From assembly GCA_026414765.1 (NCBI GenBank), contig JAOAIJ010000015.1, positions 124,001 to 188,000 of the forward strand: 64,000 nt of DNA, given 5' to 3'. Below the pieces are notes generated by a model. That model was given only the letters and a program-made list of their open reading frames with translations. It had not been told where the DNA came from and made no database searches. The position numbers and the translations under genes are program-made. Numbering within the stretch: position 1 is the stretch's first letter; each line of letters opens with the position of its first letter. This document shows positions 4,674-52,020 of this stretch, piece after piece. The DNA is from Clostridia bacterium (GTDB taxonomy: Bacteria > Bacillota > Clostridia > Acetivibrionales > DSM-27016).

Positions 4674-4749
4674 CGGGGTGTAGCGCAGATGGTAGCGCGC
4701 TTGGTTCGGGACCAAGAAGCCGCAGGTTCAAATCCTGTCACTCCGACCA
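4674..4749 (+). tRNA. tRNA-Pro (anticodon CGG), CCA encoded
   Basis: A complete 76-nt cloverleaf can be drawn. The acceptor stem CGGGGTG pairs with CACTCCG (one G-T pair), and the anticodon stem CTTGG pairs with CCAAG around loop TTCGGGA, giving anticodon CGG. The T arm contains GGTTCAAATCC, followed by discriminator A and an encoded CCA. The gene's 3' half is the left edge of a long direct repeat that reappears at 7523, so this is the attachment site for the adjacent island, and the tRNA has stayed intact on this side. Confidence 0.96.
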
Positions 4750-49690: not shown

Positions 49691-50212
49691 TTATACCCTC
49701 ACATCCAATTCTTTACCGAAATGTTTGTTTTCGATTTTCTTTACGTTATCCATAAAGAAGTCCTTTTTGTTATCGGCTTTTGTTACTGTCCTGGTTTCGC
49801 CTCCGGAAACATAGGATCTCCCGCATTCCGGACATACGCTTGTTTCGAGCTTAACACTCTGAGATATAACTTTCCTGTTTTCTCCTGCTGCTTTAGCAGA
49901 TTCATTTCTAACATGTTCCTGCTCATGAGACATTACGACTGAAGCCGATACACTGGGATCAATATGCGCCGGTGTTTTAAAAGAAACCCCCGGATCATTT
50001 GAACCATCCTGATATTTTCTGTTGCTGCAGGTTTCACAATCAATTTGACCAATACGTTTCTGCATACGCACATAAGGGTCACTTTGCTCATTACCCTTTA
50101 TTTCGGCAATTTTACCATTACCGGATATGTTATCTGCAGCTTCCGGGATTCTTGAGAAGCTGTTATTTGTATGGGTATAGGTGTTTTGATACGGATTGAA
50201 GGAAATGCTCAT
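49691..50212 (-). CDS. Putative SprA-related metalloprotease
   Basis: This 173-aa protein contains CETCSNRKYQDGSNDPGVSF, VVMSHEQEHV (an HExxH zinc motif) and VCPECGRSYVSGG, features of a family annotated as putative SprA-related metalloproteases. The N-terminus (NPYQNTYTHTNNSF) is low in complexity. Activity is not proven for the family. The start at 50212 lacks a strong ribosome binding site. Confidence 0.8.
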   Translation of the reverse strand: MSISFNPYQNTYTHTNNSFSRIPEAADNISGNGKIAEIKGNEQSDPYVRMQKRIGQIDCETCSNRKYQDGSNDPGVSFKTPAHIDPSVSASVVMSHEQEHVRNESAKAAGENRKVISQSVKLETSVCPECGRSYVSGGETRTVTKADNKKDFFMDNVKKIENKHFGKELDVRV

Positions 50213-50352
50213 AAAACTTCACTTCCTAAATACTAATATTTCTAATGGCCATAAATGTAAGTAAGAGAGTTAATATTTTAATATAGTATTACCATATCAT
50301 ACTATACAAAATATGTAAATATTTATTATGGTAAACCAGGTACAAATTGTAT

Positions 50353-50382
50353 TTGAACAACTTAGAAAATATATAGTATAAT
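50353..50382 (+). promoter_or_regulatory. Sigma-A promoter of candidate ncRNA
   Basis: TTGAAC (50353-50358), 18-bp spacer, TATAAT (50377-50382). Good match to consensus, over 500 bp from the nearest downstream gene. Confidence 0.7.
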
Positions 50383-50388
50383 TGGGTC

Positions 50389-50790
50389 AAAAGGGATACA
50401 AATTTGGGGGAAAAGCCTTACGGATTAAGCATGGCCTGCTATATATGCTAAAAACAACAGCAGGTTGAAGAACAGTTTGAGACTGCTTTAAAATATTTGT
50501 GTCAGAGTATACTTTTTTATATGCATGGATGTGCAGGATTTATATTCTTTAACGTATTTAATCCGTATATTGTCCGGTACAGAAAAATCTACGGTACGTT
50601 ATTGGAAATTGCCTCCATACATCATATTGTCACGAAAGCGGTTTGCGTGATCCCTTCTAAAAAGGTCCGGTAGGAGTAATCTACCGCGTGTTGTTTTATA
50701 GCGGGTGAGTAAATAACCCGTGTCTGAAAAATATAGAGGCTTTTCCTTCGGATTCCCTGCATCATTTATGTGTAGGGTTTCAAATTTTTA
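50389..50790 (+). ncRNA. Candidate structured non-coding RNA
   Basis: This 400-nt intergenic region has no reading frame but looks like an RNA gene. A sigma-A promoter ends 7 bp before it. A 10-bp perfect closing helix is formed by GGAAAAGCCT (50410-50419) and AGGCTTTTCC (50737-50746). Internal hairpins include AGCAG/CTGCT, GGTAG/CTACC and CGGGT/ACCCG. A terminator-like stem CCCTGCA/TGTAGGG at 50755-50777 is followed by a T-rich run. It does not show the landmarks of tmRNA, RNase P RNA, SRP RNA, T-box or cobalamin elements. It may be a long leader for the downstream deacetylase instead. Confidence 0.45.
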
Positions 50791-50895
50791 TTGTTTTGTA
50801 AATACTTCATACCATATTTTTTGTATAATAAATCTATGGGTTTTTTATAATCTTAATATTATATTTCTACATATGTTAAAGGTGGGTGCATACAA

Positions 50896-52020
50896 ATGAA
50901 AAAAGGTTTAAGAGCAATTTCGGCTTTACTGATTTCCATAGCTGTAACTCTCACAGGGTGTACAAGCAGCCCTGATACTGATAAAGACAAACAGCCAAAT
51001 AACCAAAACCAGAATACTGTCCAATCAACACAACCGGTAAAAAACGAGGGTACCGGCAAAACAACTGTACCTGATAAAAATACAGGGGATAATCAAGGGG
51101 ATATAGACCTTGCGAAAGTAAAACCAAATGAAGCAGGAAAAATAATGGTTGTGATGTTTCATAATTTTATCGAAACTTATAAGTCCGGAGACAAGCAATA
51201 CACAACAACCTTCGGTGAATTCAGAAGTTTGCTTCAGACGTTGTATGACAAGGGTTATAGACTTGTTAATATGAATGATTATATAAATAATAATATAGAT
51301 ATACCTGCAGGTAATATACCTATGGTGTTTACTTTTGATGATGGGACAGCAGGCCAATTCAATCTGGTTGAGGAAAATGGACAGCTTGTTGCAAGCAAAC
51401 AATCTGCAGTCGGTATTATGGAAGAGTTTAATAAGCAGCACCCTGATTTCGGCCTTAAGGGTACTTTCTATGTTAACCTTGGGGACAATACTTTTACTGG
51501 AAAAGGAACACTTGCCGAAAGATTAAAATATTTAAAGGATAAAGGCTTTGAGATAGGAAATCACACATATACTCATATTGACTTGAAGACAGCTAAGACA
51601 GCCGATAAGATTATTGAGCAGGTTGGTGGCAATCAAAAGGCAGTAGAGGAGCTTGTACCAGGGTATAAGCTTACGACTCTCGCACTTCCCCTCGGACATT
51701 GGGCTAAGGAAGAAATAAGAGGTTATGTGACAAGAGGTGAGTTTGAAGGGGTTAAGTATGAAAATGCAGCTATAATGCTTGTGGGCGCAAATCCTGCACC
51801 CTCACCTGTCAGTGTGAAATTTAAGCCGCTGGCAACTCCCAGGGTAAGGGCAACAGGGATTGAAAAGGTTGACGCGGACCTTGCCTGGTGGATGGAGAAA
51901 ATGTCTGTAAGTGAACAGTATGTTAGTGATGGAAATGCAGATACTATAACAGTTCCAAAAGCGAAAGAGGCAGGAGTAGATAAGAATCTTTTAAACGGAA
52001 AAAAACTCATTGTATACTAG
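50896..52020 (+). CDS. Polysaccharide deacetylase lipoprotein
   Basis: This 374-aa lipoprotein has a signal peptide with lipobox LTGC (Cys near residue 22), a disordered Asn/Gln/Thr-rich linker (to about residue 75) and a NodB-type deacetylase domain. Metal-binding motifs are FTFDDG and NHTYTHIDL (HxxxH). It would remove acetyl groups from peptidoglycan or other glycans outside the membrane. A TATAAT at 50824-50829 and AGGTGGG upstream may drive it separately from the candidate RNA. Confidence 0.88.
   Translation: MKKGLRAISALLISIAVTLTGCTSSPDTDKDKQPNNQNQNTVQSTQPVKNEGTGKTTVPDKNTGDNQGDIDLAKVKPNEAGKIMVVMFHNFIETYKSGDKQYTTTFGEFRSLLQTLYDKGYRLVNMNDYINNNIDIPAGNIPMVFTFDDGTAGQFNLVEENGQLVASKQSAVGIMEEFNKQHPDFGLKGTFYVNLGDNTFTGKGTLAERLKYLKDKGFEIGNHTYTHIDLKTAKTADKIIEQVGGNQKAVEELVPGYKLTTLALPLGHWAKEEIRGYVTRGEFEGVKYENAAIMLVGANPAPSPVSVKFKPLATPRVRATGIEKVDADLAWWMEKMSVSEQYVSDGNADTITVPKAKEAGVDKNLLNGKKLIVY

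Follow-up and report, generated by a model that had tools for sequence, protein, structure and literature searches.

The question raised by this locus is whether a long gene-free gap encodes a structured RNA and, if so, whether that RNA works alone or as the leader of the gene that follows it. The locus lies in the window, a stretch of 64,000 nucleotides (G000:C15:124001-188000) from the 4.56-Mb draft genome (G000) of a Clostridia bacterium. A sequence-only reading of the window had proposed a structured RNA of about 400 nt with its own promoter and terminator. The RNA itself is upheld by the lack of an Rfam match, by homologs that precede the same gene, and by a closing helix (P1) that is kept despite sequence change. 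It is judged close to certain that the locus encodes a structured RNA, which represents a new family within a known kind. A promoter and terminator of its own are less well supported, as described below.

The locus and its downstream gene

The gap separates a minus-strand ORF that starts at 50212 from a plus-strand gene at 50896-52020 and measures 683 bases. No ORF of at least 60 amino acids was found wholly inside 50213-50895, which bears out the gene-free region of about 680 bp described in the sequence-only reading. The RNA segment has a G+C content of 0.39, compared with 0.21 and 0.20 in the intergenic DNA to either side. A tRNA and tmRNA search returned only a tRNA-Pro at 4674. The minus-strand ORF (49691-50212) encodes a 173-amino-acid product with two CxxC pairs and an SHEQEH motif, for which no Pfam or NCBIfam match at E <= 0.001 was found.

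The presumed target is the plus-strand gene at 50896-52020, whose product resembles a lipoprotein and contains a polysaccharide deacetylase domain (PF01522, E 1.2e-10). Against NCBIfam, the product has five matches, all far under their cut-offs. Related deacetylase genes (E <= 1e-40) are present in 54 of the 58 genomes of the order, with a single strong match in each.

A conserved core upstream of one gene

The family is composed of six members: the window (G000), G001 (L018), G016 (L008), G032 (L005), G049 (L006), and G052 (L011). G001 is the family relative of the window genome and corresponds to Anaerobacterium chartisolvens DSM 27016; blastn against it gave a short match upstream of the same gene. 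Order-wide blastn produced some match at E <= 0.1 in 20 of 58 genomes and added G016 and G032, the core matches being followed in G000, G001, G016, and G032. Upstream regions of related deacetylase genes were also read for 26 cases from named genomes, and five of them showed the core. In all members, the region directly upstream of the orthologous gene has a conserved hairpin, GUCACGnAAGCnGUUUGCGUGAUC, and its parts in one order; the arrangement seen in the window recurs in five more genera.

In the window, the core hairpin and its 3' flank, GUCACGAAAGCGGUUUGCGUGAUCCCUUC, occupy 50629-50657 on the plus strand. The core is represented by R1, a covariance model of 43 positions built from the window and the five homologs. 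R1 scores the window core at 58.6 bits and, in the window's own genome, at E 1.9e-12; the five homologs range from E 1.3e-11 to 2.6e-7. The core stem, GUCAC...GUGAU, has a compensatory change in none of its six pairs; the hairpin is almost invariant and therefore offers no covariation.

A second conserved part, the 5' element AAGCCUUACGGAUU, was recognized in the alignment of members and is located at the inner end of P1 (50413-50426, plus strand). Three members carry the variant GCCUUACGG, two others carry GCCUUAGGGC and GCCGUAAGGC, and the element is divergent in G052. Judged by the alignment, it could form a small hairpin that would compete with the inner-end pairs of P1. Between the 5' element and the core is a variable central region (50427-50628, plus strand); the distance from the P1 5' arm to the core is 51 to 210 nt among the six members, and the hairpins predicted there differ from one member to another. 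The internal hairpins noticed earlier are present.

Three further candidate features were dropped. A loop pseudoknot, AAGCnGUU/ACUGCUU, was matched by 4 of 200 shuffles in the window and 7 of 200 in G032 and was inconsistent in the other four members. The core 3' flank was considered as an anti-Shine-Dalgarno sequence, and the ribosome-binding region of its own species pairs with it no better than those of other species. A leader peptide was considered as well; the longest ATG-started ORFs in the six leaders encode 50, 25, 19, 12, 16, and 12 amino acids and bear no resemblance to one another by eye.

The promoter

The promoter spans 50342-50382 on the plus strand and was seen directly, in the ortholog block, and in a consensus scan. 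It is made up of a conserved ACAAATTGTATTTGAA (50342-50357), a -35 box TTGAAC (50353-50358), and a -10 box TATAAT (50377-50382). The good promoter of the sequence-only reading, TTGAAC-N18-TATAAT at 50353-50382, is present and matches the consensus at 10 of 12 positions; by itself it is within chance, since the scan lists six promoter-like sites compared with 4.5 +/- 2.1 in shuffled sequence.

Comparison of orthologs is more informative on whose promoter this is. A block, ACAAATTnnATTTGAA, followed by the -10 box is found upstream of 13 of 53 orthologs with up to two substitutions and of 19 with up to three, these being raw counts with no control for chance; the 53 do not include G056, the 54th, whose gene lies at the edge of a contig. 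The block is present for orthologs both with and without the RNA. Six of the 19 block-bearing orthologs are the core carriers, where 200-521 bases separate the block from the chosen start codon. Among the 13 without the core, the block is 25-92 bases upstream of the gene in 11, the exceptions being G002 and G031, whose leaders are longer (311 and 230, respectively). The consensus scan lists a plus-strand promoter at the block position in G001, G016, G032, and G049 and leaves G052 unlisted. Because the block stands 25-92 bases from the gene in 11 of the 13 core-less orthologs, the promoter looks like the deacetylase gene's own. A similar block with and without the RNA means that the leader of one gene has either acquired the RNA or lost it.

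An inverted repeat, CAAAT-TGT-ATTTG, with a 3-base gap overlaps the -35 box (50343-50355), and its relatives CAAATTTCATTTG and CAAATTGCATTTG are found upstream of several orthologs. Its role may be that of an operator, or it may belong to a promoter of unusual form. A search for a promoter regulon was uninformative: the strict pattern returned one other site in the window's own genome and, owing to its spacing limit, missed the window's own promoter.

The closing helix P1 and the overall fold

P1 is formed by 19 contiguous pairs, including G-U, between a 5' arm at 50401-50419 and a 3' arm at 50736-50754, both on the plus strand, and spans 354 nt. It is longer than the closing helix of 10 bp over 337 nt described in the earlier reading. 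Equivalents are found in G001, G016, G032, and G052, with duplex energies of -30.2 kcal/mol in the window, -30.6 in G001, -30.8 in G016, -32.1 in G032, and -28.5 in G052. Shuffling of the 5' arm gives means of -13.3 to -17.8, and shuffles as good number 0, 1, 1, 0, and 0 of 500 in these five members, respectively. The window arm 50389-50418 pairs better than all 500 of its shuffles. A wider test, in which 8 of 300 shuffles were as good for the window, 2 of 300 for G001, and 0 of 300 each for G016, G032, and G052, is less striking for the window and G001 than the 500-shuffle arm test. P1 of G049 is not significant (-15.2 kcal/mol, 194 of 500 shuffles as low; 96 of 300 in the wider test).

The outer halves of the P1 arms differ in sequence among species, and their complementarity is kept. 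In a hand-set register, pairs 6-8 from the outer end are G-U/G-C/C-G in G001, C-G/C-G/A-U in G016, C-G/A-U/U-A in G032, and U-A/G-C/U-A in G052. On sequence comparison, this change with complementarity kept is the main evidence suggesting selection on structure. On covariation, a check advised in the sequence-only reading, P1 has changes on both sides among species and the core stem has no compensatory pair.

The segment 50390-50795 folds at -110.8 kcal/mol, compared with -94.6 +/- 5.7 for shuffled sequence (z -2.9, 0 of 100 as low). When the stretch bounded by the two P1 arms is taken, which in G032 measures about 190 nt, all six members beat 100 of 100 shuffles, with z-scores of -3.2 to -6.75. 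A contiguous-helix score of 39 sets the window apart, since for 42 orthologs that lack the RNA the median score is 24 and the highest 31; the other five members score 21-28, which is not above these orthologs, because bulges interrupt their P1.

A reading without a functional RNA, in which the pairing arose by chance in intergenic DNA, would fit a promoter scan that alone is within shuffles, a core stem without compensatory change, and a P1 that fails in G049. It would leave unexplained why homologs with the same order of parts occur in six genera, why P1 is kept in five of them despite sequence change, and why fold z-scores reach -6.75. Chance pairing is accordingly highly improbable.

Distribution among Clostridia

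A search with R1 recovers the core from 6 of the order's 58 genomes, always directly upstream of the deacetylase gene's single strong match. Beyond the six members from which the model was built, nothing convincing was found in these genomes. The next best match (G024, E 0.017) lies inside a 462-amino-acid ORF and was set aside as chance, and eight further matches, at E 0.12-0.81, were dropped. Among 391 genomes of the class, a sample without the five other carriers, R1 gives E <= 0.01 in two: the window's own genome and G118 (E 0.003), where the match lies inside a 380-amino-acid ORF and was also set aside as chance. In 398 sampled genomes of the phylum, only the window's own genome reaches E <= 0.001. 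Diverged members could have escaped, since the large scans were filtered more strictly and only samples of the class and phylum were searched.

A pattern search of the 391 class genomes with three mismatches found four genomes, the window's own and three others, the same number as its reversed control; the three were set aside. Phage and plasmid records gave no match. The search for a second copy in the window's own genome gave only a weak 23-base match (E 0.07).

The deacetylase gene is present without a recognized core in 48 of the 54 genomes of the order that encode it, the core being missing or unrecognized. In a tree built from 27 deacetylase proteins, the six carriers lie apart from one another and require 5 changes, a number as low in 170 of 500 label shuffles. 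With 9 of the 24 inner branches open, the tree is compatible with a single origin. This scatter could reflect repeated loss or exchange, or carriers that have diverged beyond detection.

Several core-less orthologs also have long leaders. The leader of G002 has a P1 (5 of 300 shuffles) without a recognizable core, and that of G005 has parts only, with 140 of 300 shuffles as good in the P1 test. Both G005 (L081/L126) and G002 (L075/L128) have complementary stretches, GGAACC or GGGAAC with GGUUC and GAAGAAAA with UUUUCUUC, followed by UACAUA; these leaders are possible diverged relatives. P1 is unsupported in the long leaders of G003, G031, and G053 (220, 40, and 178 of 300 shuffles).

The Ruminiclostridium orthologs are a separate case. 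G017 and G027 (L026) have a 12-pair leader helix, AAAGUCAAUUAC/GUAAUUGACUUU, and the deacetylase upstream regions L026 and L013 share a CCGCC...GCGAAGGCUU motif. Neither L013 nor L026 has an Rfam match. These elements possibly represent another structured leader of the same deacetylase gene.

What follows P1

In the window, P1 is adjoined by a hairpin at 50755-50777 on the plus strand (CCCUGCAU-CAUUUAU-GUGUAGGG, -9.7 kcal/mol), in the same place as a hairpin of G001. Its U-rich tail, UUUCAAAUUUUU at 50778-50789, is interrupted, and the terminator consensus scan of the window leaves it unlisted. The terminator-like stem of the sequence-only reading thus exists and is terminator-like only. The scan lists another plus-strand site inside the RNA (50668-50686) and, over both strands, two sites compared with 0.3 +/- 0.7 expected. 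P1 of G001 is directly followed by an A+T-rich hairpin of 7 pairs, 2 of them G-C, and then by nine T; the scan does not list this hairpin, which is likewise terminator-like only. For G016, G032, G049, and G052, the scan found no plus-strand terminator between promoter and gene. Their RNA reaches the ribosome-binding region and ends near the start codon.

These endings bear on the possibility of a stand-alone small RNA of about 395 nt that is released by a true terminator after P1 and acts elsewhere, the deacetylase gene having a second promoter. The hairpins placed right after P1 in G001 and the window would suit such an RNA, as would the TATAAT boxes between hairpin and gene, at 50824 and 50846 in the window and with one visible in G001. 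No two-hexamer plus-strand promoter is listed in that interval in either genome, however, and all six carriers have this one deacetylase gene downstream. Together with the four members that run on to the start codon without a terminator, this makes a stand-alone RNA quite unlikely. An RNA with its own promoter and terminator, as first proposed, is also less well supported, given a promoter that looks like the gene's own and RNA that reaches the ribosome-binding region in four of six members. A leader RNA fits better.

In several relatives, the 3' arm of P1 is predicted to have a pairing partner downstream instead. In G032, the P1 3' arm, GUUCCGUCUU, is predicted to pair with the ribosome-binding site, AGGAUGGAGU (6 of 500 shuffles as good). 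In G052, the 3' arm is predicted to pair with the AGGAC and GUG of AGGACGGGUG (21 of 500). A predicted hairpin of G049 holds AGGAGGUG (21 of 500), in a member where P1 is not significant and the likely start codon is served by a later GGAG. Of the two possible relatives, G005 has a hairpin that re-uses GGUUCC (4 of 500), but its P1 is not significant, and G002 has a P1 arm that can pair weakly with AGCCU ahead of four more T (62 of 500). The competing hairpin is weak in G016 (124 of 500) and absent in G001 (500 of 500, no overlap). For the window, it reaches 0 of 500 only if CCC at 50755-50757 is counted in P1; with the 19-pair P1 it merely abuts. A UACAUA sequence begins 1-5 bases past the assumed P1 end in six of eight leaders compared, the window and G049 being the exceptions, whereas only 3 of 45 other orthologs have it at any position within the 80 bases that precede the gene.

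A leader need not switch. P1 may protect the mRNA from decay, or the core may bind a protein, including an antitermination or RNA-processing factor, with no metabolite being sensed. That five of the six members have a long P1 close to the 5' end is consistent with this role, and central regions that vary freely between 51 and 210 nt suggest that only the ends and the core matter. In Ruminiclostridium cellulolyticum, stem-loops reportedly control the processing of mRNA from a cellulosome operon (PMC10311766), which also counts in its favor. Protection alone, however, requires neither the conserved GUCAC...GUGAUC core nor the overlap of P1 with the ribosome-binding site in G032 and G052, and a leader of this kind, protective or protein-binding, is unlikely.

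Relation to known RNAs

Rfam 15 has no match in the window region at gathering cut-offs, and the placement of this RNA outside known families by the sequence-only reading holds. Under lax settings, the region has one meaningless match, to a Leptospira sRNA (17.8 bits; cut-off 112). The five homologs have 19 sub-cut-off matches; among those overlapping the G049 leader, all of which are on the opposite strand, the best by E-value is rliD (24.3 of 50 bits). Across 16 homologous loci, Rfam reports nothing but an FMN riboswitch elsewhere: an ordinary one at L018:7007-7171 on the minus strand, near the deacetylase locus of Anaerobacterium chartisolvens. Large structured bacterial RNAs such as OLE, ROOL, GOLLD, and raiA/ModT are several hundred bases long, have long closing helices, and are included in Rfam. 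The present RNA differs from them in that Rfam reports only the sub-cut-off Leptospira sRNA for the window region.

The closest kind is the riboswitch. The RNA shares with riboswitches a position upstream of a protein-coding gene, as expected of a 5' leader (six of six members), a conserved core closed by P1, and endings that vary among members; in several members, a P1 arm is also predicted to be common to an alternative hairpin. Conservation across species extends to both core and secondary structure, with the core in six genera and P1 in five of six members. It differs in having no Rfam match at cut-off, a very narrow distribution in the genomes searched, and a single known target gene, which is unusual for a riboswitch class.

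The nearest precedent in the literature searched is the 5'-UTR of the xyl-doc cluster of Clostridium papyrosolvens. This leader is described as structured, longer than 400 bases, and blocking transcription, a block that is relieved by corn stover (PMC5815224). A shift between two stem-loop forms was proposed, and with it a putative riboswitch (PMC5815224). By description, both are long structured leaders of cellulolytic clostridia that precede carbohydrate-acting genes, the xyl-doc leader serving other genes, a hemicellulase cluster. In the 58 genomes of the order, R1 finds the six deacetylase leaders and no further convincing match. The open-access literature searched contained no riboswitch for polysaccharide deacetylase, and the one paper with both terms treats them separately. 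No report of this RNA was found there either, including in the main texts of genome-wide ncRNA papers.

A proposed leader switch

One core and one gene, differing endings, and what looks like the gene's own promoter favor a leader that acts in cis and resembles a riboswitch over a free RNA. The region is therefore modeled as such a 5' leader of the deacetylase mRNA, and this is probably what it is, with transcription, switching, the direction of switching, and any ligand as predictions of the model. Transcription would begin at the deacetylase gene's own conserved promoter and produce a long 5' leader. The leader would fold into a domain that is closed by P1 and carries the 5' element and the GUCAC...GUGAUC hairpin, with the variable ending next. 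In several relatives, the 3' arm of P1 could alternatively pair downstream, with or beside the ribosome-binding site. Where the two overlap, a formed P1 would leave the gene free (ON) and a lost P1 would shut it (OFF), a direction that is itself a prediction. In the window and G001, P1 is abutted by a hairpin whose tail is T-rich, and there premature termination would be the likelier means of control. The balance would be set by whatever binds the conserved core, be it a small molecule, an ion, or a protein, and a riboswitch would be the most economical form.

Some observations count against a leader switch. The hairpins after P1 in G001 and the window go unlisted by the terminator scan, the competing hairpin is weak or absent in some members, the core stem lacks compensatory change, P1 fails in G049, the contiguous-helix score is ordinary in five members, the core is absent or unrecognized in most genomes with the gene and scattered on the gene tree, and there is one known target gene only.

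A narrower proposal is that the leader is a new riboswitch class of cellulolytic Clostridia. It would sense a metabolite derived from the cell wall or from polysaccharide and control just one polysaccharide deacetylase of the cell surface, the same aptamer acting through termination in some forms and through the ribosome-binding site in others. This proposal is tentative and, in this full form, doubtful.

Comparing the leaders of an orthologous gene can recover structured RNAs that are absent from Rfam, starting from one genome. If the leader is a riboswitch, it would be a new and narrowly distributed class and would offer a direct way to ask which signal precedes a change of surface polysaccharide in these Clostridia.
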